In this document: piece after piece, positions 25,361-40,128 of the stretch
How positions within the stretch are numbered: position 1 is the first letter of the stretch
Layout of the letters: every line of letters starts with the position of its first letter
Assembly: GCF_004962245.1 (NCBI RefSeq)
Contig: NZ_SUHQ01000001.1
Coordinates: 130,549-194,548 of the forward strand
Direction: 5' to 3'
Length of the DNA: 64,000 bases
Source: Mesorhizobium sp.
Lineage (GTDB): Bacteria; Pseudomonadota; Alphaproteobacteria; Rhizobiales; Rhizobiaceae
Notes under the pieces: model-generated
The model's database searches: none
Told to the model about the DNA's origin: nothing
What the model saw: the letters and a program-made list of their open reading frames with translations, nothing else
Made by a program: the position numbers and the translations under genes

Positions 25361-25374
25361 TTGATCCTGGTCAA
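25361..25374. promoter_or_regulatory. FixK/FNR-type box TTGATCCTGGTCAA
   Basis: Matches TTGA-N6-TCAA exactly. Lies between the truncated leftward gene (25304) and groEL (25462). Confidence 0.65.
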
Positions 25375-25392
25375 CATGGCTCTGGAACGCGA

Positions 25393-25406
25393 TTGATGCG
25401 TGTCAA
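25393..25406 (+). promoter_or_regulatory. FixK/FNR-type box TTGATGCGTGTCAA
   Basis: Second exact match, 32 bases after the first. If the activator works at -41.5, transcription would start near 25441, 21 bases before the groEL ATG. Confidence 0.7.
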
Positions 25407-25461
25407 AGCGGGCTGAACGCACGCCTGTTAGGCAAATACGCAAAGAAGTTTGGAGACGGTC

Positions 25462-27084
25462 ATGGCCCACAAACAGGTATTGTTTCGTTCCGCTGCACGC
25501 GAAAAAATTCTTCGTGGCGCAACCCAGCTCGCCGACGCCGTGCGTGTGACGCTCGGGCCGCGCTCCAAGTCGGTCCTGATCGAAAAGAAATGGGGCGCGC
25601 CCATTGTCTGCAATGATGGAGTGACCATAGCCAAGGAATTCGACCTGAAGGACTCCGAGGAGAATCTTGGCGCGCGGATGCTCAGGCAGGCGGCCGAGAA
25701 AACCGGAGACATGGTCGGTGACGGCACCAGCACGTCGACAGTTCTGGCCCATGCGATGTTCGCCGATGGGGTACGCAACGTCGTCGCCGGCGCCAGTGCG
25801 ATCGACATCAAGAAGGGCCTCGATCGTGCAACAAAACGCGCGATCGAGACGCTCAAGCAGATATCGCGACCGGTCTCGACCCGCCGCGAGAAAGAGCAGG
25901 TGGCGACGATCTCCGCGCACAACGATCCGCTCATCGGCCAGTTGGTCGGCGAGGCAATGGAGAAGGTCGGCGGCGAAGGCGTCATCACGGTCGAAGAGTC
26001 GAAGACCACCGAAACCGTTCTGGACGTCGTCGAAGGCATGCAGTTCGATCGCGGGTTCCTCTCCCCCTACTTCGTCACCGATGCCGAGAAGATGGAGGCG
26101 GTCCTGGAAGACGCGCTGGTGCTGATCGTCGAGAAGAAGATCGCGTCGCTGAACGATCTCATCAAGTTGCTGGAGGCCGTGGCAAAGTCTGGCTCGCCTT
26201 TGCTGGTTGTCGCCGAAGAAGTCGAAGGCGAGGCGCTTGCGACGCTCATCGTCAATCAGATCCGGGGCACCTTCAAGAATTGTGCTGTCAAGGCACCGGG
26301 CTTCGGCGATCGTCGCAAGGCCATGCTGCAGGACATCGCCATCCTGACCGGCGGACAGGTCATCTCCGAAGACCTTGGGCTCAAACTGGAAAATGTCACG
26401 ATGGAGCAGTTGGGGCGTGCGAAGCGGATAGTCATCGACAAGGACAACACGACGATCATCGGCGGTGGCGGAGACGCCAAGGCGATCAAGGGTCGCGTGG
26501 AACAGATCCGGCGCGAGATCGACAATACGACGAGCGACTATGATCGCGAAAAGCTGCAGGAGCGGCTGGCCAAGCTTGCGGGCGGCGTCGCCGTCATCAA
26601 GGTCGGCGCGCCGACCGAGGCCGAGATGAAATCGAAAAAGGAAGCGCTCGATGATGCCATCAGCGCCACCAAGGCCGCGGTCGCCGAAGGCATCGTTCCT
26701 GGTGGAGGCCTTGCCCTGTTGCGCTGCATTGCGACAGTGGCTGACGAGGAGCAGCATTGCGAAGGCGACGAGCGGACCGGCGTGCAGATCCTCAAGCGTG
26801 CGCTGGAAGCACCGGTCAGGCAGATCGCAGAGAATTCAGCAGTCGACGGCGGGGTCGTCATTGCCAAGATGATTGAAGGCACCGGCAACTTCGGATTCGA
26901 TGCCGGACGCAAAGAATACGTCGACCTCGTCGAGGCCGGCATCATCGACCCGACCAAAGTGGTGCGCATCGCTTTGGAAAACGCCGTCTCGGTCGCCAGT
27001 GTTCTGCTCTTGACGGAAGCGACCATGACCGAAATTCCGGAACCCGCGAAAGAACGCGCTCTCGAACCGGAAATGACGATGTAG
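25462..27084 (+). CDS. groEL: chaperonin GroEL, stress-island paralogue
   Basis: 60-kDa chaperonin subunit that folds proteins in an ATP-driven double ring. The 540 residues contain [14 protein letters not shown] (nucleotide site), [14 protein letters not shown] and [13 protein letters not shown]. Start 25462 follows GGAG; the TTG at 25450 is unlikely. Odd points: no groES next to it, and the C-terminus ends EPEMTM instead of the Gly-Met tail common in main GroELs. Two FixK-type boxes stand upstream. Probably a specialised copy induced in low oxygen; the housekeeping groESL should be elsewhere. Confidence 0.95.
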
Positions 27085-27102
27085 CTGACCTGGGGGCCTG
27101 AT

Positions 27103-27426
27103 ATGGTGGAAACACACAACTCGATGATTTCGCCGCAACAGTGCCGCGCTGCGCGCATTCTCATCCAGGTCGACCGTCCTCTCTTGGCTGCCGCGTCCGG
27201 CGTTTCGGCACAGGCTATCCTGTCTTTCGAAAGGTCCGGCCGCAGTTTACCCGACGCCGAGATGCTCGCCCTGCGGCAAGCTTTGGAGGGATTGGGCGCG
27301 GAATTCATTCGCGAAGACGCCATGGGCGGCGCCGGAGTCAGGCTTCGCTTCGATGCTGACCAATCCCGCAAGATCTCGGATTGGGAGGCGGAAGGCGGCA
27401 GGGTCGGCGATGACGATGTGCCCTGA
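27103..27426 (+). CDS. small XRE-like regulator, degenerate HTH
   Basis: 107 residues, similar in layout to the regulator at 22034: SPQQCRAARILIQVDRPLLA, SGVSAQAILSFERSGRS and the shared ending GAEFIREDAMGGAGVRLRF. The usual WSQ..LA of the HTH is replaced by VDRPLLAAASG, so DNA binding may be altered. It lies 18 bases after groEL and likely rides on the same transcript. Confidence 0.72.
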   Translation: MVETHNSMISPQQCRAARILIQVDRPLLAAASGVSAQAILSFERSGRSLPDAEMLALRQALEGLGAEFIREDAMGGAGVRLRFDADQSRKISDWEAEGGRVGDDDVP

Positions 27427-27449
27427 CGAACTGGCAAAGTATGCATGCT

Positions 27450-27463
27450 TTGATGCGCATCAA
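27450..27463 (+). promoter_or_regulatory. FixK/FNR-type box TTGATGCGCATCAA
   Basis: Perfect palindrome; predicted start of transcription (-41.5 rule) near 27498, 21 bases before the universal stress protein ATG at 27519. Confidence 0.75.
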
Positions 27464-27518
27464 GGCGCAGCATCTGACCTGCGGTGATCCTGCGATAAAT
27501 CCTATCGGAGGCACGAAA

Positions 27519-28340
27519 ATGATCTTCAACACTATTCTCGTTCAACTCGACCTCGATTCTCCGGCAGCGCCGCGAACGACCTATGCGCTGGAGTTGGCGC
27601 GACGCTTCGAAGCTACGCTGATCGGTTTCGCCGCGGCCGATTCATATGTGTTTGTTCCTGGCAACGATGGCGGCATGGCGGCGGCGGAAATCATGCGTCA
27701 ACGCCGGACCGAGATCGAGGATCGCCTGAAGGTCCTGAAGGAAGAATTCCTGAGTGTCGTCGGAGACGATGCCTCCTGGCGCGAAGAGATCGGCGATCCG
27801 ACACGTCTGCTCGCGGTGCATGCCCGCGCAGCAGATCTCATCGTGACCGGAACGCCGGCCTCGGGTGTTGCCGGTGATCACCACCGGGTGGTCGATATAG
27901 GAACGCTAGTGCTGTCGGCCGGACGGCCCGTGCTGGTTGCGGCCGACCAACTTGCTCCGCCCGACCCCAAGAAGGTTCTGGTGGCGTGGAAGGATACTCG
28001 CGAGGCTCGGCGCGCAGTCACCGATGCACTGCCCTTTTTGACCGGCGCACAAGATGTGCTCGTGGCGACGATCGAGGAACAGAACCAGAGGGATGCGCGC
28101 GAAAGTGTCAGCGACGTCGTGCGGTTCCTGATGAGGCATGGCGTGAAGGCGAGATCGGAGGTCCTAGGCGCCGGTCATGCGGACGCTTGCGAAACCGTCA
28201 CCGAACTCGCTCGCGGCATGGGTGCTGAACTTGTGGTCGCTGGCGGCTACGGTCACAGCCGGATCCGTGAATGGGCCTTTGGAGGCATGACCCGCTCCCT
28301 GCTCAAGCAAAGCTCAATCAACCGATTGTTTTCGAACTGA
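27519..28340 (+). CDS. universal stress protein, tandem USP domains
   Basis: 273 residues with two UspA folds: the first starts MIFNTILVQLDLDSPAAPRT and contains DLIVTGTPASG; the second starts KKVLVAWKDTREARRAVTDA and ends ELVVAGGYGHSRIREWAFGG with the G-2x-G-9x-type nucleotide motif. GGAGG precedes ATG 27519. UspA proteins support survival in starvation and low oxygen; a box for FixK/FNR directly upstream fits that role. Confidence 0.93.
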   Translation: MIFNTILVQLDLDSPAAPRTTYALELARRFEATLIGFAAADSYVFVPGNDGGMAAAEIMRQRRTEIEDRLKVLKEEFLSVVGDDASWREEIGDPTRLLAVHARAADLIVTGTPASGVAGDHHRVVDIGTLVLSAGRPVLVAADQLAPPDPKKVLVAWKDTREARRAVTDALPFLTGAQDVLVATIEEQNQRDARESVSDVVRFLMRHGVKARSEVLGAGHADACETVTELARGMGAELVVAGGYGHSRIREWAFGGMTRSLLKQSSINRLFSN

Positions 28341-28524
28341 CGCTACCGCTGAATACAAGGCTGTTCGCCGGCTGATTGGGCGAGCGACAGGCTAATAAGG
28401 GTCGCATCGTTCGGGACGGCGGCGAAATCCTGCTTTCGTTCAAGCTCGATCGCTTCGAAAAAACCGAAGTCCCGCAGGGCGCGCCTCGCGCTTCCTGATC
28501 TGGAAATGCAGCTGAGGTATCGAG

Positions 28525-29121
28525 ATGAAGGAACTGCCGCTTGCCGAGGTCTATCGGCTGATCGAGCCTGGTCCCGTTGTTCTCCTGACAACCCGGGCCA
28601 GAGGACGCGCCAACGTCATGACCCTGTCGTGGCACACAATGGTGGAGTTCACACCCCCAACGATTGCCTGTGTCGTATCGAGCGGCGACTTCTCTTTTGC
28701 CGCACTGCGCGACACGAAGGAGTGCGTGATCGCGATCCCGGCCGTAGGTCTGGCAGAAAAAGTCGTGGAGGTAGGCAACTGTTCAGGCCGGGACAAAGAC
28801 AAGTTCGCGACGATTTGGCTGACACCGCTGCCCGCCGAGCACGTGGCGGCACCCTTGGTCGCTGAATGCTTCGCCAATCTCGAATGTCGCGTCGTCGATA
28901 CCCGCCTGGTCAACAAATACAATCTTTTCGTTCTGGAAGTTGTGAAGGCTTGGGTTGATCCGGGGCAGCCAAAGCCGAAGACCATCCACCATATTGGAAA
29001 GGGAGCCTTCGTATGGACGGAGAGATCATCCATTTCGAGTCGGCTATGCCTTGAGGTCGGCCGCTTGATACGGATCAAGGTCGTGGCATCCAATCTCTGT
29101 TCTGGTGGCGGCAGAGCCTGA
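28525..29121 (+). CDS. flavin reductase family protein, C-terminus frameshifted
   Basis: FMN-binding split-barrel (flavin reductase/DIM6-NTAB) protein: EPGPVVLLTTRARGRANVMT, FSFAALRDTKECVIAIP, ECFANLECRVVDTRLVNKYN, GKGAFV. Family members end with a strand such as DGEIIHFESAMP; here that string occurs in the next frame (about 29014-29054, stop TGA 29052) after a single-base loss near 29012, so the encoded protein instead carries an unrelated tail to 29121. The core domain is intact and may still bind FMN. Confidence 0.85.
   Translation: MKELPLAEVYRLIEPGPVVLLTTRARGRANVMTLSWHTMVEFTPPTIACVVSSGDFSFAALRDTKECVIAIPAVGLAEKVVEVGNCSGRDKDKFATIWLTPLPAEHVAAPLVAECFANLECRVVDTRLVNKYNLFVLEVVKAWVDPGQPKPKTIHHIGKGAFVWTERSSISSRLCLEVGRLIRIKVVASNLCSGGGRA
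29065..29078 (+). promoter_or_regulatory. FixK/FNR-type box TTGATACGGATCAA
   Basis: Lies in the spurious tail of the flavin reductase frame, i.e. in the original intergenic space. Predicted transcription start near 29113, 23 bases before the ATG at 29136. Confidence 0.7.
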
Positions 29122-29135
29122 ATGGAGTCATCAAA

Positions 29136-29795
29136 ATGGTTGGCATTACACTCAGCCCTGAACAGATTCGGTCCGCTCCACCGGAAGTGCGGCAGTGGCT
29201 CGAGCAGGAGATCGCCCGTTCGCTGGGCCTGCATCCGCAATCCGAGACAGTCGTGGCCGATGCGCCGCATCTGGCCGCCTGCAGTCCTCAGGAAGCAATG
29301 GCGATCTATACGTCGATCAGGGGCCTGCTGCCTGTGGTCAACGTCTTCTTCGAACTTGGCCGCGATACGGCGAGGAACAGCGAAGACGGCATTGAAGTCT
29401 TCCGGCTTGCCGACATGCTGCGCCACACCCGCCTCCCGGACTTGGAGCGACTGGTCGCCTGCCTGCAAGTCATCGACAACGCTTTCCACCAGATTCGGAA
29501 TGAAGATGACGAGGCGCTCTTCATCTTGGATCCCCGAGGCTACTGCATCGTCACGGTCACGACCCAGCAGAGCGTTCTTGCCGTCTGGACGCAGGAAATA
29601 GCCGCAAAACAATTTGTCACAGGCGATGCCGCGGCGGACACCAGTACAGATTTGTCGCCGGCAGGGCCTTTCTCGATCTCGGGTACGGTACCGCAGACAT
29701 CCATCCACCTCGGGAAACCCTTCTCGGTGCCAGCCAGTCCGAAGGTCGCCGGCGCTGCCAGCGCTGCGGCCTCCATAGCCGGACAGGAAAGCTGA
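29136..29795 (+). CDS. conserved hypothetical protein of the stress island, 219 aa
   Basis: Soluble protein starting MVGITLSPEQIRSAPPEVRQ. The first 60 residues are helical; the middle part (EVFRLADMLRHTRLPDLERL, DEALFILDPRGYCIVTVTTQ) looks like an alpha/beta domain; the end is Pro/Ala/Ser-rich and probably disordered. I recall relatives in other rhizobia but no function. GGAG lies 11 bases before the ATG and a FixK-type box before that. Confidence 0.75.
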   Translation: MVGITLSPEQIRSAPPEVRQWLEQEIARSLGLHPQSETVVADAPHLAACSPQEAMAIYTSIRGLLPVVNVFFELGRDTARNSEDGIEVFRLADMLRHTRLPDLERLVACLQVIDNAFHQIRNEDDEALFILDPRGYCIVTVTTQQSVLAVWTQEIAAKQFVTGDAAADTSTDLSPAGPFSISGTVPQTSIHLGKPFSVPASPKVAGAASAAASIAGQES

Positions 29796-29803
29796 TCGTC
29801 GGT

Positions 29804-29952
29804 GTGACCTACAAAGTGATTCAGGAAGCACTCCGCGCAGCGGGAATTGTGATGAGCAAGAGGGGCGAGACCCATCGCATAAACTTCCTAGCGGCCTCGA
29901 CGATACCGCTCAGTACACGACGAGCGCCGCATCCCCATCGCCTGTTGGCTAG
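29804..29952 (+). pseudogene. small conserved gene broken by a one-base frameshift
   Basis: The first frame gives VTYKVIQEALRAAGIVMSKR then GETHRINF; the family I remember continues FGGxxDTAYYTxSLxDA. That continuation appears in the next frame as GGLDDTAQYTTS (from 29893, stop TAG 29950). So a base is missing near 29888. Without a search the family claim is from memory. Confidence 0.45.
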
Positions 29953-30084
29953 ACTCTCCCCCGAGCCAATGTGGAATTCTTCAGCACGTAGCGCGGCTAA
30001 TGAAGAACGCCCAACCACGACAGGCTCCACAACGCAATCGACGCTGTCAGGTTCAGATGCGACCCAGAGCTGATGGAGGATCCT

Positions 30085-30387
30085 ATGAGCGATAGACGTT
30101 TTGATCGACCCGTTCTGGTCAGGAATGGGCAGTTCCTGATCGAGGAGATTGGATGCCTGGCTGAAGCATTCGAGTTTCTTGAGGGGTGGCCGAAAGATCG
30201 CAGGGGACCGATCTATAAAACTGCCTTTCGTGCCTGTGAACGGGCCCATGCCGGTGGCGTTCCGCTTTCTGTCGCGCACGATGCATTCGCGAGCTTCGCC
30301 AGATCTGCCAAGATTCTGGAAGGCGCATCCGCCGCTATGCCCTGCGCCATGGGGGCGAAGTCGAGTCGTGGTAGCAAATCGACCTAA
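30085..30387 (+). CDS. DUF982 family protein
   Basis: 100 residues starting MSDRRFDRPVLVRNGQFLIE with GGAGGAT upstream. The DUF982 pattern is clear: AFEFLEGWPKDRRGPIYKTA, FRACERAHAGGVPLSVAHDA, FASFARSAKIL. Small rhizobial family of unknown role, usually multicopy. Two paralogues are at 43180 and 43769. Confidence 0.85.
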   Translation: MSDRRFDRPVLVRNGQFLIEEIGCLAEAFEFLEGWPKDRRGPIYKTAFRACERAHAGGVPLSVAHDAFASFARSAKILEGASAAMPCAMGAKSSRGSKST

Positions 30388-30548
30388 GCCTCGGGGCGCG
30401 AGAGCGTCCTCCGGTTAGCCCACCAAGCCAGGTCGCCTCAAACTGATCCGCGCCACTGCGACAAGGCGATGTCGTCGCTTTGTCGCGACGAAGCTCTCGG
30501 TTCCGCGTCAACACCCCTGTGGTTGAGCGCTTCAAGTACTGGAACGAT

Positions 30549-30953
30549 TCACGCCATCGTCAACGTGTTCTCGATGGCTTCGGTGGAATGTTTCGCAAGG
30601 TCCTTGGCCAGCTCGCCCACCAGCTTTGCTCTCAACGGTGCCTGAAAGTGCCTACGCAGCTCGCCCAGCGTCCGCGGATCGGCGATCACTACCACATGCT
30701 CGAACGCTTCCGTCAGCGCCTCGCGATTGAGATAGGCAGCCACGGCCGCAGCAAAGTCGTCTTCCCGCAGGCGGGAGTCGTCGGGATTAGCGGTGGAACT
30801 GCGATGCCTGCCGCCCGAGCCCGTGTTCGCCAGGTGCAACCCCGGCTCGGGCATTTCGACCAGGTCGATCCGAGGTTCGTGACCTTTGTTGCGGAACAAG
30901 CGCAGCTTATCGCCGTCGATTACCGCGACGAGGGTACCGTTAGCCAGAATCAT
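30549..30953 (-). CDS. host attachment family protein
   Basis: Family named after an Agrobacterium protein needed for attachment to host cells; it belongs to an RNase E-like/eRF1 fold group. Starts MILANGTLVAVIDGDKLRLF, then GSGGRHRSSTANPDDSRLRE and the C-terminal VVIADPRTLGELRRHFQAPL, LVGELAKDLAKHS. GGGAGAAA precedes ATG 30953. Lies leftward after the BON-domain gene and may be in the same transcript, 107 bases downstream. Confidence 0.85.
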   Translation of the reverse strand: MILANGTLVAVIDGDKLRLFRNKGHEPRIDLVEMPEPGLHLANTGSGGRHRSSTANPDDSRLREDDFAAAVAAYLNREALTEAFEHVVVIADPRTLGELRRHFQAPLRAKLVGELAKDLAKHSTEAIENTLTMA

Positions 30954-31060
30954 GTTGTTTCTCCCGCGACATGGTTGGACCGAGATCCAGCGCACTCTCT
31001 AGCCATCGTTGGCGACGCGGCGGCCACTGACGAAGCCGCCGCTTCCAACTCATAGGCCCA

Positions 31061-31708
31061 TCAGATTATGGAAATACGATCTTCCACAGTTCGGACGCCT
31101 GGCGACGACCAGGCGGCGCGTTCCGCAGCCTGGCGCTCTGACCAGGCCCTGACCTTGCCTTCCAGGGTCACCTTGCCATTCAGAACGTGGACGCGGATCG
31201 CCTGTGCTTCGGTTTCCGCGTCACGCTTCAGCGCATCCTCGATGCGCTTCTTGATGTCGGCTCCTGATGCACGGGGGGTGATTTCGATCTGGTTGGCTAC
31301 GCCGACAACGCCTGCCAGGCCGCGTACGGCCTCAGCTGCGGCATTCTTCTGATACTGCCATTCGAGTTTGCCCATTAGCGTGATCCATCCGTCCTGTACC
31401 TTGACCTGCACCTTGTCCCTCGGGATGGAGACATTCCAGGTGATCGCATCGACCGCGCGTTTGGCGATCTCGTCGTCGGCGGTCCCTTTCAGGCCAACCA
31501 ACCGAACTTCGATTTCCTCGGCGATGCCCTTCACTCCCTTGATCCGCTTGACTACATCTTCGGCAGTCGTCTTTTCCCAATAGGAAGAAACATGCCCGGT
31601 AAGTGTGACGATGCCGTCTTCCACGGCGACACCGATGTGGGCAGCGTCGATGCTCGGCTCGAATTCCAACTCATCGAGAATGTTCTGACGCAACGTTATA
31701 TCCGTCAT
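31061..31708 (-). CDS. triple BON-domain protein
   Basis: Three consecutive BON domains (about residues 1-70, 75-145 and 150-215), each with the G-hyd-V-T-L-x-G pattern: VEDGIVTLTGHVSSYWEK, VQDGWITLMGKLEWQYQK, VLNGKVTLEGKVRAWSER. No signal peptide, so cytoplasmic. BON domains bind phospholipids or surfaces and are common in stress-induced proteins. Start 31708 has AGGAGA upstream; a FixK-type box lies 74 bases before it. Confidence 0.92.
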   Translation of the reverse strand: MTDITLRQNILDELEFEPSIDAAHIGVAVEDGIVTLTGHVSSYWEKTTAEDVVKRIKGVKGIAEEIEVRLVGLKGTADDEIAKRAVDAITWNVSIPRDKVQVKVQDGWITLMGKLEWQYQKNAAAEAVRGLAGVVGVANQIEITPRASGADIKKRIEDALKRDAETEAQAIRVHVLNGKVTLEGKVRAWSERQAAERAAWSSPGVRTVEDRISII

Positions 31709-31781
31709 GGTCTGTCTCCTGTTTGTTGAGCGGGATTTTCTCCCGCAGCCAAGCAAAGAGCATCTTTTGCGCCATTCCTCA

Positions 31782-31795
31782 TTGATCCGGCTCAA
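31782..31795 (-). promoter_or_regulatory. FixK/FNR-type box TTGATCCGGCTCAA
   Basis: Exact TTGA-N6-TCAA between the PPOX-fold gene and the BON gene. Predicted leftward start near 31747, 39 bases before the BON ATG. Confidence 0.7.
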
Positions 31796-31821
31796 TGCCG
31801 GGCTGACTGGCTGAAGGACTG

Positions 31822-32340
31822 TCATGAAGTGGCGGACGTGCCCACAAGCCAATGGTGTCGCATGCTGTCCAGGGTCTCGGCGATGTCATCGGCCTCGATC
31901 TTGACGAGATCGGTGTGACCAAAACCCAGGGAATAGTCGAGAACAGAGATGATCGTGGGCCGTACTCTGAACAGCTTCACGGGTGTGGCCTCACTGGGCT
32001 GGATAACCGAAATCTGAGGGAAGCGCTGCACCATCATGCGTCCAATTTCTGTGAGTTCGGACGGCAACACGACCTCCGTGGCGGTCGCTGCCATCGACAA
32101 TCCCTGAATCTCCAGCCAGTTCGCATAGGGCGCAGTCATGGCGACCGAAACGCGCGGATCGCGAGAAATATTCATAGCCTTCTGCGAGCCGGCTCCGCAG
32201 CCGAAATAGAGCAACAGACCGTCATGGACGAACGAGACGACCGTCGCCTGCGGCGAGCCGTCGGAGCGGGTCGTTGCAATGGTCATGTCCATGCAACGCG
32301 CCAGGATGTTGATCATCTTCTGCTGAAGCTTGTGTTTCAT
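31822..32340 (-). CDS. PPOX-fold (pyridoxamine 5'-phosphate oxidase family) protein
   Basis: 172 residues. MTIATTRSDGSPQATVVSFV then GLLLYFGCGAGSQKAMNISR and DPRVSVAMTAPY are the typical split-barrel flavin/heme-binding pattern of general-stress PPOX proteins. Cofactor and reaction unknown. It follows ftsH by 47 bases on the same strand and probably shares its promoter. Confidence 0.86.
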   Translation of the reverse strand: MKHKLQQKMINILARCMDMTIATTRSDGSPQATVVSFVHDGLLLYFGCGAGSQKAMNISRDPRVSVAMTAPYANWLEIQGLSMAATATEVVLPSELTEIGRMMVQRFPQISVIQPSEATPVKLFRVRPTIISVLDYSLGFGHTDLVKIEADDIAETLDSMRHHWLVGTSATS

Positions 32341-32387
32341 GACACTCCCTCATTCAAGAATGGTCGGTATCTCGGTCGGCGTCGCCT

Positions 32388-34208
32388 TCACGCCGCCGGG
32401 GCCAGCACCGCGGTTCGCCGCAACGGCGCGAACTCGTCGGGCGTCAATGTTTCTTTCTCGAGCAGCAGTTTCGCGCCGGCGCGTAGGTCGGTGATCCTCT
32501 CCCGAAGCACATCCCTGGCAATAGCAAAGGCCTGGTCGATCATGCCGCGCACTGCCAGGTCGACTTCCCGCGCCGTAGCCTCCGAATAGTCTTTCTTGCT
32601 CGGTAGGCCAGGGCCGTCACCCAGCCATTGCAGGCGCTGCTCTTCGAGAACGGCCTGCCCCACCGTCGAATCCATTCCGAAGCGGGTGACACATTGACGG
32701 GCTACATCCGTGACCTTCGCGAGGTCGTCGGCCGCCCCGGTCGAGACTTCGCCGAATATGACTTCCTCCGCCGCGCGGCCGCCCATCAGGACGACCATGC
32801 GGTCCTTCAACTCACCGACGGTGATCAGAAACCGATCCTCCGTCGGGCGCTGCATGGTGAACCCGAGTGCGCCGATCGAGCACGGGATGATGGATACCTT
32901 GTGCACCGGATCGGCGCTTGGCGTCGCGACCGCCACCAGGGCATGCCCCATTTCGTGAAAGGCGACACGCTCACGCTCCTGCGGTTTCAGCAATCGGCTT
33001 TTACGTTCCGACCCTTCGACGATGCGCTCGACCGCATTGGTAAAGTCATCCATCGTTACCTTGTCGGCGCCACGCCGCGTGGCGATGATGGCCGCCTCGT
33101 TGACCAGATTGGCAAGGTCCGCGCCGGTGAACCCGGGCGTTATCGCGGCAATCTCGTCCGCTCTGACGCCAGGCGCGATTGAAACGTTCTTGATGTGGAC
33201 CTTGACGATGGCCTCCCTGCCCTTGCGGTCAGGCCGGTCCAGAACGACCTGCCGGTCGAAGCGCCCGGCGCGCAGCAAGGCCGGGTCCAGGATTTCGGGC
33301 CGATTGGTGGCGGCAAGCAGCACGATACCAACGCGCGGATCGAAACCGTCGAGTTCCGACAGCAGTTGGTTCAATGTCTGCTCTTTCTCATCACCGCCGC
33401 CATAACCCGCGAATGGGCTGCGGGCGCGGCCGAGCGCGTCGAGTTCATCGATGAAGATAATGCAGGGCGCGGCCTGCCGGGCCTGCTCGAACAGATCACG
33501 CACCCGGGCCGCCCCCACGCCGACGAACATCTCGACAAATTCCGAGCCGGAGATGGAGAAGAAGGGCACCCCCGCCTCGCCGGCGACGGCGCGCGCCATC
33601 AGCGTCTTCCCTGTGCCAGGTGGGCCGACAAGCAGGATGCCCTTAGGGATACGCGCGCCGAGGCGGCCGTATTTGTCCTTGTCCTTGAGGAAGGAGACGA
33701 TTTCCTGCAGTTCCGCCTTGGCTTCGTCGACGCCCGCCACATCTTCGAAAGTGACCCCCGTCTTGCGCTCCAGATAGACCTTCGCCTTCGACTTGCCGAT
33801 ATTGATCAGACCACCCATGCCCTGGCGATTGGCGAAGCCTCGGAACAGGAAAGCCCACAGACCAAAAAAGAGAAGCGTCGGCAGCACCCAGGACAGGATC
33901 GTGGTCAGCCAGTTGCTGTCGGTGGCTCCGGTGATTTGGACGCCGGCTTTCTCGAACAGCTCGGCCATGGCGGGATCGACACGATTGGTGACGAAGTATT
34001 GCTTTCCGTCCTGCGGCGCCGAGAAGCGACCCTGGATGGTCGTCTCGGTCACCGTGACTGACGCGACCTTGCCATCCGCAACATAGCGAATGAGATCGCT
34101 GTAGGAAATCGAAGCCAGATCGCGATACCCGAACCAAAGCTGAAAAAGCGCCATGAAGACCATAGCGGCGATAACGTAGCCGATGTTAAAAGTGTGTTTG
34201 CGATCCAT
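32388..34208 (-). CDS. ftsH: ATP-dependent zinc metalloprotease FtsH, paralogue
   Basis: Membrane AAA+ protease that degrades misfolded membrane and regulatory proteins. 606 residues: first membrane segment [20 protein letters not shown], periplasmic FtsH_ext domain, second segment [18 protein letters not shown], Walker A GPPGTGKT near residue 190, Walker [12 protein letters not shown], zinc site HEMGH near residue 416. Differs from main FtsH by the shorter C-terminus (ends [10 protein letters not shown]). ATG 34208 ([11 protein letters not shown]) is chosen. Likely a second, stress-linked FtsH under the box at 34267. Confidence 0.95.
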
Positions 34209-34266
34209 AGCGTTCCGCCCGTCGACTTTGCTTGTCTGCAAAATGTCATGCCCTGCGGGCGCGTCC

Positions 34267-34280
34267 TTGATGCGCATCAA
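34267..34280. promoter_or_regulatory. FixK/FNR-type box TTGATGCGCATCAA
   Basis: Identical to the box at 27450. Sits between divergent ftsH and the kinase-like gene. Leftward start would be near 34232 (24-base leader for ftsH); rightward near 34315, at the ATG 34316, i.e. almost leaderless. Confidence 0.7.
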
Positions 34281-34315
34281 AGTGACAGCCGTCGCCGGCT
34301 ACCATTGTGCCGGCG

Positions 34316-35377
34316 ATGGCGAGACAGCGACAAATTGCAAACCTGGCAGCGAAGGTACGCTTTCTGAGCGATCCGGCGGCATACGGGAGCGGAACGACAC
34401 ATGTGGAGGCCCGCGAGACGCATATGTCCTGGGTCTTCCTCACGGACGAACTGGTCTACAAGCTCAAGAAACCGGTCAGGCACGCGTTCCTGGATTTCAG
34501 CACGATCAGGAAGCGGCAGTTTTACTGCGGCGAGGAACTGCGGCTGAACGCTCGCCTTGCCGCTGAAACTTATCGGCGGGTCCTTTCTCTTCGCCGTGAC
34601 GCATCGGGCCGCTTAACCCTCGGCGGCAGCGGCCGCGTCGTCGACTGGCTGGTCGAAATGAAACGCCTGCCGCAAGGCGACATGCTGGACGAGCGCATCG
34701 CTTGCGGTCGCCTGGCCGCGGCGCAGATCGACGACGTCGCGAACACGCTGGCGGTCTTTTATGCGCAACGTCAGGCCGAAATTGACGGCGGCGGCGCCTA
34801 TCTGCGCCACCTCACCGGAGAGCAGCGGATCAACCGCGCCATCCTGCTCCGGCCGGAATTGGCGTTGGCGGATATCGCTTCTGGCGCGCTGGACATGGTG
34901 GATGGACTGCTGCAGCGATTGAAGCCGCGGATCGAAGCGCGCATTCTTGGCGGCGCGATCGTCGAAGGGCATGGCGACCTGCGCCCCGAACACGTCTGTC
35001 TTTGCCAGCCGCCCCAGATCATCGACTGCCTCGAGTTCAACCGGTCGATGCGCGTCATCGATCCCTATGACGAGATCAACTATCTAGGCATGGAATGCGA
35101 GATGCTGGGCGCGCCATGGATTCGGCCGCTGCTGGTCAAGGCTCTGCAAAGTCGGCTGCCGGATAGCCCCGATGCCGAGCTGCTGGCGCTCTACGGCGGT
35201 TTCAGAGCATTGCTGAAGGCCCGTCTCGGGGTCGCTCATCTCTTCGAGACGCCGATCCGTCATCCGGAAAAATGGCGCCCGCAGGCAATCCGCTACATCA
35301 GGCAGGCGGAGCGCGAGATGTTCAGTGTTCGATCCCGATCAATTCGGAAATCGACCCCTGTGTGTGGAGACGCCTGA
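34316..35377 (+). CDS. COG2187-type aminoglycoside-phosphotransferase-like kinase
   Basis: 353 residues. The catalytic loop VEGHGDLRPEHVCL (HGD with later D in IIDCLEFNRS) is that of the APH/choline-kinase fold, and the N-terminal ETHMSWVFLTDELVYKLKKP is typical of COG2187. Many COG2187 proteins are fused to a second P-loop kinase domain; here only the first part is present. Substrate unknown. The 3' end overlaps the convergent PRPP synthetase gene by 56 bases. ATG 34316 preferred to GTG 34307. Confidence 0.8.
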   Translation: MARQRQIANLAAKVRFLSDPAAYGSGTTHVEARETHMSWVFLTDELVYKLKKPVRHAFLDFSTIRKRQFYCGEELRLNARLAAETYRRVLSLRRDASGRLTLGGSGRVVDWLVEMKRLPQGDMLDERIACGRLAAAQIDDVANTLAVFYAQRQAEIDGGGAYLRHLTGEQRINRAILLRPELALADIASGALDMVDGLLQRLKPRIEARILGGAIVEGHGDLRPEHVCLCQPPQIIDCLEFNRSMRVIDPYDEINYLGMECEMLGAPWIRPLLVKALQSRLPDSPDAELLALYGGFRALLKARLGVAHLFETPIRHPEKWRPQAIRYIRQAEREMFSVRSRSIRKSTPVCGDA

Positions 35378-36302
35378 TCGCTTTGCCTATCAGACGGCCG
35401 ACCGGCACAATTTCCAAGCGCGCCTCAGTGTAACGAGCTTTGGCGGCTGCAGCCGAGTCCACGCTGTCAGTGACGATGATGCGGTCTATCGCCTGGCTGC
35501 CGAACAGCACGTCGGCGCCCTTGCCAAACAGTCCGTGCGTGGCGATCGCTTGAACGGCGCTGGCACCGCGTTCACGACAGGCAAGTGCTGCGCGCAGCAT
35601 AGTGCCACCCGTGCTGATCAGATCATCGACAATGAAAACGGCACTGTCCGCGACGTCGCCTGCAAACAGTTCGCCGGAAACTACATTCCGGCTGCGGCGC
35701 TTTTCCATGAAGCCGAAGCCGATTTGCTTCCCAGTTTCCGCCTCCAGGGCCTCCTTGAGCAATTGCGCGCGCTTTACGCCGCCGCTGTCGGGTGAGAAAA
35801 TGGTGATCGGCAGATCGCCGGCCAGCTTGCCCATGAGGGGAGCGAAGAGCTTTCGCGTGTCGAGGTGCACGCTCACGCAGCGAAAGGCGTTCTGGAACGC
35901 CGCGAAATTATGGACGTCGAGCGTCACAATCCGGTTCGTACCCATAGCCTCGAAGAGTTGCGCGACATAGCGCGTGGTGACGGGGTCGCGCGCCTTTGTC
36001 TGCCGGTCCTTGCGCGCGTAGGCTAGATAGGGAACGACCGCTGTTACTCGCGCGGCGCCGTTTTCCTTGCATGTCGCCAGGAAGAACAGGAGTTTGCACA
36101 GCTTGTCGTTGGCGGACACGCCGCCACTTCCACCAAGGCTGTGCAGTACATAGACGTCCCTGCCGCGCACGCTGACAAGCGGGCGCGCCTTATGCTCCCC
36201 GTCCTCGAAATCTCGCTCTTCATGCGGATCGAGTTCGATCGAAAGCGCCCGCGCCGCGGCCGCGCCGAGTTGTTCCGAGCCTTTGAGTGCGAAGAAACGC
36301 AT
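35322..36302 (-). CDS. divergent ribose-phosphate diphosphokinase (PRPP synthetase)
   Basis: Makes 5-phosphoribosyl-1-pyrophosphate from ribose-5-phosphate and ATP. 326 residues: KGSEQLGAAAARALSIELDP, YLAYARKDRQTKARDPVTTR, DVHNFAAFQNAF and the PRPP loop FIVDDLISTGGTML. It differs from housekeeping Prs: Q-D-R is K-D-R, and the flexible loop is changed, so kinetics or regulation may differ. ATG 36302 has AGGA upstream. A FixK-type box is 34 bases before the start, too near for activation at -41.5. Confidence 0.88.
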   Translation of the reverse strand: MRFFALKGSEQLGAAAARALSIELDPHEERDFEDGEHKARPLVSVRGRDVYVLHSLGGSGGVSANDKLCKLLFFLATCKENGAARVTAVVPYLAYARKDRQTKARDPVTTRYVAQLFEAMGTNRIVTLDVHNFAAFQNAFRCVSVHLDTRKLFAPLMGKLAGDLPITIFSPDSGGVKRAQLLKEALEAETGKQIGFGFMEKRRSRNVVSGELFAGDVADSAVFIVDDLISTGGTMLRAALACRERGASAVQAIATHGLFGKGADVLFGSQAIDRIIVTDSVDSAAAAKARYTEARLEIVPVGRLIGKAIRRLHTQGSISELIGIEH

Positions 36303-36335
36303 GTTTCCTGTTATCCAGTTTCGGGCACGGATGGA

Positions 36336-36349
36336 TTGATCCGCATCAA
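36336..36349 (+). promoter_or_regulatory. FixK/FNR-type box TTGATCCGCATCAA
   Basis: Between the divergent PRPP synthetase and HHH genes. Rightward start predicted near 36384, 34 bases before ATG 36418; leftward it would fall on the PRPP synthetase ATG. So it probably activates the rightward operon and might block the leftward one. Confidence 0.68.
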
Positions 36350-36417
36350 GGATGCGGGCCTGCGAATGGCTTAGGGGCACTAATCGACAATCTTGAAGTC
36401 CTGCGCTGGGGGAAGCC

Positions 36418-37329
36418 ATGCCGGAGCTGCTTCGGACCACGACGCCGGACACAGGCGTCAAGCCAATGATGACATTGGCGACTAAACCACTCCCTGAGAA
36501 CATCGGCGTGGCAGCAAAACTCCGCGATTTTGCCGATCTGCTAGACAGCCAGGGCGCGGACGGTTTCCGCGCGCGGGCTTACAGATCGGCGGCCGATGTA
36601 GTCGCCAAACTGGAGCGGCCCTTGGGCGAAATCCTGGCAAAGGAGGGACGCGACGGCCTCGTCGCCCTTCCGGCAATCGGAACAGGCATAGCCGGCGCGA
36701 TTGCCGAGATCATCGCGACGGGACGGTGGTCCCAACTGGAACGGCTGCGCGGCGAGATGGAGCCGGAAGCGTTGTTTCGGTCGATCCCCGGCATCGGCCC
36801 ACAATACGCGCACCGCCTCGCCGACGAGGCACAGCTCGAGAGCCTCGAAGACCTCGAGAACGCCCTCCATAGCGGCGCGCTTCATATCAAGGGGATTGGC
36901 CACCGGCGCAAGGAGATGCTGGCTGCGACCCTCGCCGAGCGGCTCGGCAGAGTTCGGCTGAGAACGACACATCAGCCTCAACCCTTACCGCCGGTGTCCA
37001 TGCTGCTCGATGTCGATCGCATGTACCGCGAAAAAGCAGCTGCCGGCGAGCTTCGCAAAATCGCCCCAAAGCGCTTCAATCCCAAGGGCGAGGCCTGGCT
37101 GCCGGTCCTGCACGCGCGACACGACAACTGGCATTTCACCGCGTTCTTCTCGAACACCAGGCTGGCGCACGAATTGGCGAAGACGCGCGACTGGGTCGTG
37201 ATCTATTTCCAGGCCGAGGGTCAGCCGGAAGGGCGCTGCACAGTCGTCACCGAAACACGTGGGCCGATGGCGGGCAAGCGCGTCGTCCGGGGACGGGAAG
37301 ACGAAAAGCAACTGAAGGAACCAGCATGA
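36418..37329 (+). CDS. helix-hairpin-helix protein, PolX-like N-terminus with a distinct C-terminal domain
   Basis: Residues 25-185 resemble the 8-kDa and fingers part of DNA polymerase X/beta: FADLLDSQGADGFRARAYRS, ALPAIGTGIAGAIAEIIATG, SIPGIGPQYAHRLADEAQLE, HIKGIGHRRKEML (two HhH motifs). There is no polymerase palm or PHP domain; instead residues 195-303 form another conserved domain (DREYR-like RMYREKAAAGELRKIAPKRF, WHFTAFFSNTRLAHEL, TVVTETRGPMAG). DNA binding is likely, activity unknown. Start 36418 has GGGGGAAG upstream. Coupled to the DUF3775 gene. Confidence 0.8.
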   Translation: MPELLRTTTPDTGVKPMMTLATKPLPENIGVAAKLRDFADLLDSQGADGFRARAYRSAADVVAKLERPLGEILAKEGRDGLVALPAIGTGIAGAIAEIIATGRWSQLERLRGEMEPEALFRSIPGIGPQYAHRLADEAQLESLEDLENALHSGALHIKGIGHRRKEMLAATLAERLGRVRLRTTHQPQPLPPVSMLLDVDRMYREKAAAGELRKIAPKRFNPKGEAWLPVLHARHDNWHFTAFFSNTRLAHELAKTRDWVVIYFQAEGQPEGRCTVVTETRGPMAGKRVVRGREDEKQLKEPA

Positions 37330-37772
37330 TGAAAAGAGCGGCGACCAGGATTGGTGACGGCGAGACGGAACTCGAAGTTCCGCTCGAAACCGTATGCTTC
37401 ATTATCATCAAGGCGCGCGAATTCGATGCCAAGGATCCGGTTACCGAACCCAGCCCCGCCTCCAATCCGTCCGACGATCATTCCGCCGCGATCCTCGAGG
37501 ATCATGACGACGACCCGGTCCTTGAGGAACTGCGGTCGCTGATTTCCGATCTTTCCATTGACGCACAGATCGACCTAGTGGCCCTGATGTGGCTGGGCCG
37601 CGACGATCATTCCGCCGACGAATGGCAGAGTGTCCGCTCGCAGGCGGCTGACGCGCACAATGAGCATACGGCTGATTATCTTTGCGGGACACCCCTGCTT
37701 GCTGACCATCTCGCCGATGGTCTGTCGACACTCGGCTACTCCTGCGCCGAGTATGAGGGCGAGCACCTTTAG
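37326..37772 (+). CDS. DUF3775 family protein
   Basis: 148 residues. The start overlaps the previous stop (ATGA at 37326-37329). DUF3775 features: ETVCFIIIKAREFDAKDPVT, then DDPVLEELRSLISDLSIDAQ, LVALMWLGRDD and a helical end. Uncharacterised rhizobial family; the coupling suggests it works with the HHH protein. Confidence 0.84.
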   Translation: MMKRAATRIGDGETELEVPLETVCFIIIKAREFDAKDPVTEPSPASNPSDDHSAAILEDHDDDPVLEELRSLISDLSIDAQIDLVALMWLGRDDHSADEWQSVRSQAADAHNEHTADYLCGTPLLADHLADGLSTLGYSCAEYEGEHL

Positions 37773-38141
37773 CCATTGCAGCGCCCTGCGCTTGCTGACG
37801 GATTGCGTTTCGCGCGGCGACGATCGCCGTTGCGCTATCCCTTGATGTTCGAGCATCTCCATCGCTCTAGCGGAAAACATTTTCTGTCGCCTTTGATGTC
37901 AATCAATGAGCCTGCTCCCTGCATCGGCTTTGATGCAATTCTCGTCAGGCCGAGCCGAACTTGGTGACGCGGGCGCGATGGACCGTGGCAAAACGCGGAT
38001 TCGCGAAGCAATGGACTAGTCCGGCAGCGATACCTGGCGAGCGGGTCCGCTGGCCTCCAACTCTAGCGCCTCTTGGGAGACCTAAAGGTGGAAGGGTAGG
38101 CCGCGGTACCTGTCGATCAACCCACTTTCGAGGATAAAGCC
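37773..38141. other. 369-bp region with a FixK-type box before hsp20
   Basis: No gene seen. Holds the box at 37893 and a long leader (about 200 bases) for hsp20. I looked for the UUGCU/AGGAG pairing of a ROSE-type thermometer next to the Shine-Dalgarno GAGGA and did not find a clear one. Confidence 0.5.
37893..37906 (+). promoter_or_regulatory. FixK/FNR-type box TTGATGTCAATCAA
   Basis: Exact TTGA-N6-TCAA. Predicted start near 37941, about 200 bases before hsp20. Confidence 0.65.
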
Positions 38142-38681
38142 ATGGCCGAAGCTGCCACCAAACTGCCTGTGAAATCCGAAAAAACTGCCGCCCCTGCCCG
38201 GTCCGACAGCTGGACTGCCCCGTTCGAGAGCCTGCGTCGCGAAATCGACCGTCTGTTCGATGACTTCCATCCGTTCGATTTTCGCCTGCCGTCGGCACGC
38301 TCCCTGTTCGGCCGCGAATTGCCAACGCTGCGCTACGCGGATTGGCAGATCGCGCCGGCGATGGATCTTGTCGAAAAGGGCGAGGAATATGAGATCACGG
38401 CCGAACTGCCCGGCATCGACGAAAAGAATGTCGAGATCAAACTCGCCAACCGGACGCTGACGATCAAGGGCGAGAAGACGGAAGAGAAGGAAGAGAAGGA
38501 CAAGGACTACTATCTGTCCGAGCGCCGTTACGGCTCCTTCCAGCGTTCGTTCCAGCTGCCCGAAGGGGTCGACGCCGACAAGATCGACGCGAGTTTCGCC
38601 AAGGGTGTATTGACGGTGAAGCTGCCGAAGACCGCCGAAGCTCAGAAGGCCGAGAAGAAGATCACGGTCAAGGCGGCGTAA
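38142..38681 (+). CDS. Hsp20 / alpha-crystallin small heat shock protein
   Basis: Holdase chaperone that keeps unfolded proteins soluble. 179 residues: variable N-terminal arm, then the crystallin domain AMDLVEKGEEYEITAELPGI to ASFAKGVLTVKLPK (conserved A-x-x-x-G-V-L), and a Lys/Ala-rich end. GAGGA precedes ATG. Hsp20, GroEL and Usp in one cluster is common for low-oxygen stress loci in rhizobia and other proteobacteria. Confidence 0.94.
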   Translation: MAEAATKLPVKSEKTAAPARSDSWTAPFESLRREIDRLFDDFHPFDFRLPSARSLFGRELPTLRYADWQIAPAMDLVEKGEEYEITAELPGIDEKNVEIKLANRTLTIKGEKTEEKEEKDKDYYLSERRYGSFQRSFQLPEGVDADKIDASFAKGVLTVKLPKTAEAQKAEKKITVKAA

Positions 38682-38699
38682 TAGGCGTGACCACTGATC

Positions 38700-38736
38700 G
38701 TCTCAGCGCGTCTGTTCGGCGCGCTGAGACCTTCTA
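38700..38736 (+). terminator. terminator of hsp20
   Basis: Perfect 11-bp arms GTCTCAGCGCG (38700-38710) and CGCGCTGAGAC (38720-38730) followed by CTTCT, twenty bases after the hsp20 stop. Confidence 0.8.
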
Positions 38737-38828
38737 AGAGAAGACGATTTGCAAGCTGCGCTTATTTGAGACCTGGGTCGCGGAACGAGCAACATTTCGA
38801 CCTAGGGCTGTGTTGCCCCCGCGCCATA

Positions 38829-39026
38829 TCAACGCGATGGTCTGGCAATACTTCCTGGGCTGCCAGGTTCGCGGGACTGATCGCGTGCTTGGCCTTCGGC
38901 TATCTCGAGCTTCTTCTGCTCCAACGCCAACAAGCCTTCGATGACGCGCCGTTGTTCCGGATCGGTCTCGCATGCGAGCAGATCCCGAAAATGGGCGATA
39001 TTGGCACGCGCAATGAACCGGTCCAT
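38829..39026 (-). CDS. small conserved rhizobial protein, 65 aa
   Basis: MDRFIARANIAHFRDLLACE followed by TDPEQRRVIEGLLALEQKKL is the pattern of a widespread rhizobial family of 50-70 residue all-helical proteins of unknown role. A related gene is at 40147. A near-consensus FixK-type site TTGATGCATGTCGA (39071-39084, one mismatch) is 45 bases upstream. Confidence 0.75.
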   Translation of the reverse strand: MDRFIARANIAHFRDLLACETDPEQRRVIEGLLALEQKKLEIAEGQARDQSREPGSPGSIARPSR

Positions 39027-39119
39027 GACAGCAGCATCCTACACCCAAGCTCGGGCCGCCCAAAGCTATTTTGATGCATGTCGATGCTGCGACTCGCGCT
39101 TTCGGTCGCCCCTCGGTCT

Positions 39120-39472
39120 CGTCAGGCGCGAGTGATTTCATCGAGAAGCCCTTCGAGGATGAAGTCCTGATCAACGCCATTAAACGAGCGGCGAACCGGT
39201 TCGATACCGACACCGAGGAGGCCCACGACCTGGCGGCGATCCGCTCCCGGCTCGATCAACTTTCAGAGAGGGAACGTCAGGTTCTGACGGGCGTTGTGGC
39301 CGGATTGCCGAACAAGACAATCGCCGATGACCTGAGCATCGGTTTGCGGACGGTCGAAGTTCACCGCGCCGACATCACGTCCAAAATGCAAGCGAGCAAC
39401 TTGCCAGAGCTGGTACGGATTTCAATGGCTTTGGAGCTGGCCGACAAGGGATATCCGGGGAGCCGGAGCTGA
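39120..39472 (+). pseudogene. fixJ: truncated FixJ-type response regulator
   Basis: Only the last part of the receiver domain remains (ASDFIEKPFEDEVLINAIKR, with the conserved Lys-Pro), then the linker and complete LuxR/FixJ HTH: LSERERQVLTGVVAGLPNKT, DLSIGLRTVEVHRADI. The phospho-acceptor Asp and most of the receiver are missing; sequence before about 39120 is unrelated. It closely resembles rhizobial FixJ as I remember it. Without a start signal it is probably not expressed, though a lone HTH could act constitutively. No fixL is nearby. Confidence 0.8.
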
Positions 39473-39933
39473 TTGCAGGACATCACCCAAAGCTACCTCC
39501 ACACCCCTTTCGACCGCCCGTCCGGGGCTTGCTGATATTGCAGCGATGCGGACAGGCATGGCAGGTCTGCTGAAGCAGTCTAGGTGGAATCCCATAAGGA
39601 CCAAACCGGATTTCGTAATTTCAGATATTGCGCCATTGATCTCATAAGCAGAGGCAGAATGTCGTCTCGATCTGGTGACGTCAGCTTCACCATCGAGACT
39701 ATCTTCCCCGTGCGTCTCTACCCCCAAGCAGAAGGCACAATCCACATGCCGGGCCTGCGCAGCAGCGAGATGATGAAATGGCAGACCTTGCGGAACGTGG
39801 CGGCCCAATAACAGGAAACTCGACTGCTGACTGCCGTTCGGAAGGCATTCCCGTGCCCGGCAGGCAAGATGCCCGATCGTCAGATTTGACCTGCGTCAAG
39901 GATGCCTTTTCCTTTCCGTCCAAAAATAAACCT
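39473..39933. other. 461-bp region with one FixK-type box
   Basis: No recognisable gene; one short rightward frame (39655-39811) has no family. Holds the box at 39886 before the 64-aa gene. Confidence 0.45.
39886..39899 (+). promoter_or_regulatory. FixK/FNR-type box TTGACCTGCGTCAA
   Basis: Exact TTGA-N6-TCAA, 34 bases before ATG 39934; at -41.5 the transcript would begin at the ATG. Confidence 0.6.
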
Positions 39934-40128
39934 ATGTGGCAACCAATATCGACTGCCCCTTTTGATCGGGATTTGGAATTGGCCGTCATGGACAGGGACG
40001 GCGCTCACGCCCTCGTTTTTCCCTGCAGGCGTATACTGACAGGCTGGATCAAATCGGCCACGAAGGAGCGGGTCGATATCTCACCCACCCATTGGAGAAT
40101 ATGGGAACCTGCCAACAAGGAGGTTTAG
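39934..40128 (+). CDS. small conserved WQPIST-type protein, 64 aa
   Basis: MWQPISTAPFDRDLELAVMD, then HALVFPCRRILTGWIKSATK and THWRIWEP. This compact protein is, from memory, frequent in rhizobia; the WQPIxTAP start also occurs in DUF551. Role unknown. Directly preceded by a FixK-type box. Confidence 0.75.
   Translation: MWQPISTAPFDRDLELAVMDRDGAHALVFPCRRILTGWIKSATKERVDISPTHWRIWEPANKEV

Follow-up and report, generated by a model that had tools for sequence, protein, structure and literature searches.

A 64,000-nucleotide stretch of Mesorhizobium sp. DNA (RefSeq assembly GCF_004962245.1, contig NZ_SUHQ01000001.1, positions 130,549 to 194,548; here called the window, in whose numbering positions are given) contains nine exact copies of the FnrN/FixK-type box TTGA-N6-TCAA between 25361 and 39899. 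The sites are in strong local excess, they are conserved, and most of the genes that they precede here have them upstream in other loci too. We propose that they mark a predicted low-oxygen stress regulon, the regulator being FnrN, FixK or both, and put the probability of this reading at roughly 0.86. A first-pass annotation of this DNA had suggested that the genes behind the boxes form one oxygen-responsive regulon. That prediction is supported by the conservation of the half-sites, the link between box and gene, class-II spacing across loci, FnrN, FixK and FixJ proteins in the genome, and further boxes at ccoN, ccoG and fnrN-hemN. We refer to the boxed segment as the island.

Nine exact boxes lie within 14.5 kb

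We scanned for exact matches to TTGA-N6-TCAA, together with a strict form (TTGAT-N4-ATCAA) and a restricted form (TTGAY-N4-RTCAA). The window held nine matches, all within 14.5 kb; the nine positions previously reported were all exact and there was no tenth site. Dinucleotide shuffles of the window gave 0.61 matches on average and four at most, and none of 100 shuffles reached nine. Five boxes (27450, 29065, 34267, 36336 and 37893) had the strict form, and eight different spacers occurred among the nine sites. Across the 6.9-Mb assembly, in which the window lies on contig 37, we counted 112 sites compared to 25 for a reversed-pattern control, and 57 compared to 8 for the restricted form. Similar density throughout the genome, the outcome that the first-pass annotation had named as refuting its proposal, was not observed: against nine sites in 14.5 kb, the remaining 6.89 Mb held 103, or one per 67 kb. 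At that rate 0.22 sites are expected per 14.5 kb, giving a Poisson probability of 2.5e-12 for nine or more, and when 112 sites were placed at random 2000 times, no stretch of that length ever held more than six. Thus, the strong local excess that had been claimed was confirmed, but it is not unique, as other contigs of this genome have stretches with 4 (C40), 12 (C47), 4 (C66) and 4 (C93) boxes; together with the window these stretches account for 33 of the 112 sites. Furthermore, all 41 genomes in a survey of the genus (our own included) exceeded the control, with 18-132 sites compared to 8-36.

The looser pattern TTG-N8-CAA was found 22 times in the window, with 13 expected, and within 25.4-39.9 kb it added just three sites (27937, 30886 and 34228) to the nine, so that the signal sits in the exact boxes. 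Sites with a single mismatch numbered 12 in the window, three of them in 24-41 kb (35329, 37398 and 39071).

Position of the boxes relative to genes

Distances were taken from the centre of each box to the likely start codon. A pair of boxes precedes groEL, the distal one (25361-25374; TTGATCCTGGTCAA) lying 94.5 bp and the proximal one (25393-25406; TTGATGCGTGTCAA) 62.5 bp from the GroEL ATG. The third box (27450-27463; TTGATGCGCATCAA) falls inside a mechanically called open reading frame (ORF), yet is 62.5 bp upstream of the likely ATG, at 27519, of a universal stress protein (Usp) gene. The fourth (29065-29078; TTGATACGGATCAA) is 64.5 bp from the next ATG, at 29136, and the fifth (31782-31795; TTGATCCGGCTCAA) 80.5 bp from the ATG of a BON-domain protein. 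Box six (34267-34280; again TTGATGCGCATCAA) stands between the divergently transcribed ftsH (65.5 bp) and a kinase-like gene (42.5 bp), and box seven (36336-36349; TTGATCCGCATCAA) between the likewise divergent genes for a phosphoribosyl-pyrophosphate (PRPP) synthetase (40.5 bp) and an HHH protein (75.5 bp). The eighth (37893-37906; TTGATGTCAATCAA) lies 242.5 bp from the Hsp20 ATG and the ninth (39886-39899; TTGACCTGCGTCAA) 41.5 bp from an ATG at 39934. Every box had been described as lying in an intergenic space or promoter; judged by likely start codons this holds for eight of the nine, whereas the box at 29065 is inside the 3' end of a flavin-reductase ORF (28525-29121). Its equivalent in Mesorhizobium Root102 is intergenic, and the ORF of the window overruns the stop used there, where the protein has 178 residues. 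Behind this equivalent box Root102 carries a Usp-like gene and the window an unrelated 219-residue gene, that is, one promoter with different cargo.

The half-sites are conserved while spacers drift

Each box was aligned, together with 200 bp of flanking sequence per side, to eight Mesorhizobium loci (L001-L008), which carry the closest named relatives of the kinase-like gene at 34316 (81-90% protein identity), and 43 of 72 possible alignments spanned the box. Changes affected 2 of 344 half-site positions (eight per box), compared to 60 of 258 spacer positions (six per box) and 987 of 4277 positions in flanks 7-60 bp away (23% in both spacer and flanks). Intact boxes made up 41 of the 43: 3/4 and 4/4 aligned relatives for the distal and proximal groEL boxes, 5/5 for the usp box, 3/4 for the BON box, 8/8 for each of the boxes at 34267 and 36336, 7/7 for the hsp20 box and 3/3 for the ninth. 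The box at 29065 gave no alignment because homology ends at the box; an exact box occupies the equivalent place in L001, L003 and L008. Spacer changes adjoining the half-sites were T-C and A-G exchanges in either direction, and the preferred form of the box is thereby kept. Unlike the boxes, the look-alike site at 35329 stayed within one mismatch in 1/8 relatives and that at 37398 in 2/6; the third look-alike, at 39071, did so in 2/2 aligned relatives and was an exact box in one of them.

Boxes recur before most of the boxed island genes in other loci

Further loci (L001-L080) were selected for a homologue of the gene at 34316, as the best 80 of 364 confirmed stretches, and the sample is therefore biased towards islands holding that gene. 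A gene was counted as boxed if a box lay within 300 bp upstream. The 29 loci L009-L037 come from more divergent Mesorhizobium, Chelativorans, Pseudaminobacter, Ensifer/Sinorhizobium, Phyllobacterium, Devosia and others. There, homologues were boxed in 11/12 cases for GroEL, 17/19 for Usp, 9/9 for Hsp20, 5/5 for BON, 4/5 for FtsH, 6/8 for HHH, 14/28 for PRPP synthetase, 6/11 for DUF3775 and 10/28 for the kinase-like gene, compared to 51/400 among the remaining ORFs there. Over L001-L037, hsp20 was boxed in all 16 copies, and the sole homologue of the gene at 29136 (orf29136) found among the 80 loci, in L032, was also boxed, 64.5 bp upstream. For most boxed genes, this comparison and the conservation of the half-sites indicate that the box is under selection and kept with its gene; in L009-L037 this does not hold for the gene at 39934 (orf39934), and orf29136 has one homologue.

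Promoter geometry across loci fits a class-II activator site

Both sides of TTGAY-N4-RTCAA boxes from L001-L037, the window and two other stretches of its genome were surveyed for the -10-type element TANNNT (474 flanks, 412 after removal of near-identical ones). Its start peaked at 21 bases past the box (26 of the 412 flanks) and at 22 (23 flanks), with offsets 30-99 giving 0-7 each. Such an offset matches the spacing known from class-II activator sites, and it fits the positions described for activating anaeroboxes of Rhizobium leguminosarum, -32 to -34 from mapped starts (PMC7888657). Five boxes of the window lie 62.5-65.5 bp (GroEL, Usp, orf29136 and FtsH) or 80.5 bp (BON) before a start, implying a leader of about 21-39 bases. 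The best -10 element in the window was TACCAT, at offset 19 on the plus side of the box at 34267.

Candidate regulators and other boxed genes of the genome

The genome encodes two FnrN-type proteins, on contigs C40 and C64, each with CxxC plus a further N-terminal cysteine; the C40 protein matches FixK2 (PDB 4i2o) and, across the cysteine region, FNR (PDB 9qlt and relatives). A FixK type without the cysteine cluster is encoded on C92. For this protein and the FnrN of C64 the best NCBIfam matches were the Rhodobacter FnrL and Caulobacter FixK models, both below their 300-bit cut-offs. FixJ, over its family cut-off, is encoded on C93, and one nifH gene in the genome exceeded the family cut-off. 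On C40, ccoN, ccoG and a Usp gene each have an exact box in front, and a further one separates fnrN from hemN; the 5.75-kb fixJ contig (C93) carries four.

A second, larger cluster, of at least 12 exact boxes across 26 kb (20.7-46.5 kb), is present on C47. Its genes encode a cytochrome c-like protein (below the Pfam cut-off), DUF2267, PPDK-like, PfkB, CBS-BON and host-attachment proteins and, as judged by eye, a dehydrogenase-like protein. In Root102, boxed DUF2267-like and ABC-transporter genes like those of C47 lie directly downstream of the island, which suggests that the island has probably been split in the present genome. On C66, an exact box precedes a gene for an arginine-ornithine antiporter, followed by genes for ornithine carbamoyltransferase and a protein of the amino-acid-kinase family; this arginine-deiminase-type pathway would be predicted to be oxygen-controlled as well.

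A predicted low-oxygen regulon and its alternatives

In the regulon that we propose, low oxygen would lead FnrN/FixK to bind the boxes and so turn on genes for chaperones, a protease, stress proteins and nucleotide metabolism as one unit of control. FnrN would sense oxygen directly through its cysteine cluster, the level of FixK would be raised by FixLJ, and a dimer of FnrN/FixK type would bind a box centred near -41.5 and recruit RNA polymerase. About ten transcription units would depend on the nine boxes: groEL with the gene at 27103, usp with the flavin-reductase gene, orf29136, BON with baeRF12, ftsH with PPOX, the kinase-like gene, the PRPP-synthetase gene, HHH with DUF3775, hsp20 and orf39934, the boxes at 34267 and 36336 each serving a divergent pair. 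Their products would protect proteins and see to their turnover, and would handle ribose phosphate and DNA maintenance, while lack of oxygen stalls growth, in soil or in the nodule.

Several observations weigh against this reading. Three putative members were not boxed in their own right in the comparison of loci, or rarely so: PPOX (0/1 in L009-L037, 0/4 in L001-L008), baeRF12 (0/2 and 0/5) and the flavin reductase (boxed in 1/5 copies in L001-L037). Their membership consequently rests on assumed co-transcription. This applies to PPOX, which the first-pass annotation had counted as a member: it does lie downstream of ftsH on the same strand, but has no box of its own. The gene at 27103 was likewise unboxed (0/2 in L009-L037, 0/1 in L001-L008), and orf39934, boxed in 3/3 copies in L001-L008, was boxed in 0/4 in L009-L037. 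The link was weaker in L038-L080 (by title about half beta- or gammaproteobacteria, the rest mostly other alphaproteobacteria), with 17/44 kinase-like and 8/37 PRPP-synthetase genes boxed compared to 51/747 other ORFs. Some loci with the gene at 34316 are poor in boxes (one each in L013, L014 and L024, none in L021), and 15/56 other ORFs in L001-L008 were boxed too, since some of the neighbours are themselves boxed genes. As the relatives do not count as independent of one another, P-values are only indicative. The -10 elements of the window itself are weak: of the 18 flanks of its boxes, only 4 score as high as the top 10% of background. Box-to-start distances vary from 40.5 to 242.5 bp, and for the boxes at 39886, 36336 (towards PRPP synthetase) and 34267 (towards the kinase-like gene) almost no leader would be left if the box were at -41.5. 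Finally, a second fixNOQP-fnrN-hemN cluster on C64 (fix genes named by eye) contains no exact TTGA-N6-TCAA, meaning either that exact matching misses sites or that this copy is controlled otherwise.

The alternative that survives best is a narrower form of the same reading, in which the boxes are functional, with groEL, usp, hsp20, BON, ftsH and HHH alone answering to oxygen and the remaining genes either just adjoining them or controlled by other means, for instance heat shock. The three members without their own box, the few homologues of orf39934 and orf29136, and the distant box of hsp20 speak for it. On the other side, the same-strand adjacency of the unboxed genes is consistent with operons, the distant hsp20 box is intact in every aligned relative and recurs with every hsp20 copy in L001-L037, and no Rfam family, for example the ROSE thermometer, exceeded its cut-off in 22-45 kb. 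We regard this narrower form as somewhat unlikely. A known RNA element ahead of hsp20, a thermometer included, was itself rejected as a candidate, as the same region gave no Rfam match at the gathering score.

The boxes could also be genuine CRP/FNR-family sites that serve mainly another member, such as a nitric-oxide regulator of NnrR/Dnr type, the signal then being nitrogen oxides. CRP/FNR-type regulators recognise similar palindromes, and the genome has 18 HTH_Crp_2 matches over cut-off, of which at least three (L094-L096) look, by eye, like other helix-turn-helix proteins. However, the same box stands at oxygen-linked places, namely ccoN, ccoG, fnrN-hemN and four times on the fixJ contig, and the strict form TTGAT-N4-ATCAA is described as the FixK/FnrN anaerobox (PMC7888657). 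We consider this alternative improbable. An origin of the boxes in chance, base composition or copies of a repeat element is practically negligible and was ruled out, for although TTGA and TCAA are short and 25 reversed-pattern matches arise by chance in the genome, 0/100 shuffles and 0/2000 placements matched the cluster, half-sites are kept while spacers drift, and the spacers are of eight kinds.

Comparison with known systems

The control mechanism that we predict is that of FnrN/FixK, and similar regulons have already been published. By described gene types, the lxa locus of Burkholderia resembles the island in its clustered Usp, Hsp20, BON and flavin/nitro-compound reductase genes (lxa also has a phosphofructokinase); its genes are reported to be raised at low oxygen and needed for anoxic persistence, with the FNR-type BCAM0049 as candidate controller (PMC6127331). 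It differs in having six Usps and 50 genes (BCAM0275-BCAM0323), and its induction was measured whereas that of the island is predicted from sequence; the accessible text of that paper does not mention the terms FtsH and FNR. From the lxa-type set, Usp, Hsp20 and BON are in the island, while PfkB and PPDK-like genes are on the separate contig C47.

In Bradyrhizobium diazoefficiens, as we read the last column of the published table, the genes assigned to FixK2 encode, among others, two Usps, an Hsp20, a host-attachment protein and cbb3 oxidase subunits, and microoxia induces GroEL copies, phosphoenolpyruvate synthase and glucokinase (PMC6515984). The regulon differs from the island in that groEL2 and groEL3 are not marked there as FixK2 targets, groEL3 being marked NifA/RpoN, and the HHH-DUF3775 and kinase-PRPP pairs are not among its genes in the accessible part of that source. 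The same anaerobox as that of the island precedes the hsp20 gene RLV_1399 of R. leguminosarum, for which about 50-fold, FnrN-dependent microaerobic induction is described (PMC11784457). RLV_1399 is, however, a single gene, with the box 87.5 bp (and an imperfect second one 143.5 bp) before its start compared to 242.5 bp in the island. A reconstruction of FnrN/FixK regulons in 50 Alphaproteobacteria describes the same motif and regulators, with Rhizobiales targets reaching beyond redox genes, and its main text, as far as accessible, does not mention chaperon, usp or GroEL (PMC4999443). GroEL and FixK go unmentioned in the accessible text on the bacteroid transcriptome of M. huakuii (PMC3973600), which speaks neither for nor against the regulon. 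We found no description of this island in the titles and abstracts of the searchable literature, a coverage outside which most subscription journals lie, and a literature search on DUF3775 returned nothing related.

Against this background, what sets the island apart is how dense and how conserved its boxes are, along with three or four members that would not have been anticipated. The less expected ones are a GroEL lacking groES, a PolX-like protein paired with DUF3775, and a kinase of APH fold whose gene accompanies that of PRPP synthetase. Mutants of M. loti R7A in fixK and fixJ are reported still to fix nitrogen (PMC3538637). The island provides a concrete, conserved list of candidate FixK/FnrN targets beyond nitrogenase, comprising a chaperonin, a protease, and small heat-shock and universal stress proteins. 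Moreover, it ties the little-studied HHH-DUF3775 pair, the APH-fold kinase and the groES-less GroEL to oxygen limitation, a predicted tie that suggests a condition in which to seek phenotypes.

More tentatively, and as a possibility rather than an expectation, the island may be a dedicated hypoxia proteostasis-and-repair module of Mesorhizobium and its kin. It would consist of an anaerobox-driven chaperonin parted from groES, FtsH, Hsp20, Usp, a polymerase-less, predicted DNA-binding protein of PolX type accompanied by DUF3775, and a kinase and PRPP synthetase that together would return ribose phosphates to nucleotides. The whole of it would also be kept under oxygen control in genera that are not known as nodulators, and would thus be an ancestral programme for surviving hypoxia in soil that later became useful in the nodule.

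Genes of the island

Genes that the first-pass list had not named are those for the kinase-like protein (34316), a flavin reductase and the baeRF/host-attachment protein. The GroEL chaperonin (25462-27084, plus strand; TIGR02348) has neither a groES beside it nor a GGM tail. It is 56-57% identical to four other GroELs of the genome, each with an adjoining groES; no groES was found anywhere on its own contig, and all four groES genes that the genome yielded adjoin the other four GroELs. None of these four had a box nearby among the matches listed, C48 and C75 being covered for the restricted form only. Another divergent GroEL, on C92 (249941-251503), is 42% identical to the island copy and also lacks a GGM tail and a groES on its contig. 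For comparison, M. loti MAFF303099 is described as carrying groESL operons at four places on the chromosome and at one on pMLa, of which just one responds to heat by induction (PMC3989490).

Directly after groEL, and probably co-transcribed with it, lies a gene for a 107-residue protein (27103-27426, plus strand) with no Pfam or NCBIfam match at E 0.01. It is followed on the plus strand by the Usp gene (27519-28340; PF00582 on the longer ORF 27441-28337), the flavin-reductase-like gene (28525-29121; PF01613), which has no box of its own and whose 3' end is altered relative to L001, and orf29136 (29136-29795; 219 residues, no family match). On the minus strand, the BON-domain protein (31061-31708) has three BON stretches (PF04972 on 31061-31852), with the baeRF12 or host-attachment-like gene (30549-30953; PF18856 and PF10116 on 30549-30995) downstream of it and without its own box. 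The FtsH-type membrane protease (32388-34208; TIGR01241, PF01434) is likewise on the minus strand and followed by the PNPOx-like PPOX gene (31822-32340; PF01243). Hsp20 (38142-38681; PF00011) and the 64-residue product of orf39934 (39934-40128), which has no assigned function, are encoded on the plus strand.

The product of the gene at 34316 (34316-35377, plus strand), which we take to be COG2187-like, had no Pfam match. The motif HGDLRxxH is invariant in 26 sequences, and the structure model of the protein, with a predicted local-distance difference test score (pLDDT) of 90.5, matched aminoglycoside, choline, methylthioribose and hexosamine kinases of the PDB at 9-17% identity. The motif, the confident model and the PDB matches together indicate that this APH/choline-kinase-fold protein is likely a small-molecule kinase. 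Its locus also contained a PRPP-synthetase homologue in 73 of 80 cases, that of the island being a divergent ribose-phosphate diphosphokinase (35322-36302, minus strand; TIGR01251). The HHH protein (36418-37329, plus strand; PF14716) comprises the lyase and fingers part of PolX, without the polymerase palm, and a C-terminal part of its own. PDB sequence matches to the PolX lyase and fingers lie within residues 23-173, and a fold search supports the PolX part, although on a poor model (pLDDT 72.5, predicted template-modelling score 0.39). The DUF3775 gene (37326-37772, plus strand; PF12616) overlaps the HHH gene.

The island further contains, at 39071-39472, a FixJ-like C-terminal fragment that is 54% identical to the FixJ of C93, without a receiver domain and with a stop upstream; it is likely the remnant of a lost fixJ copy. 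Lastly, the window carries three DUF982 genes (30073-30387, 43168-43434 and 43769-44086) within 14 kb.

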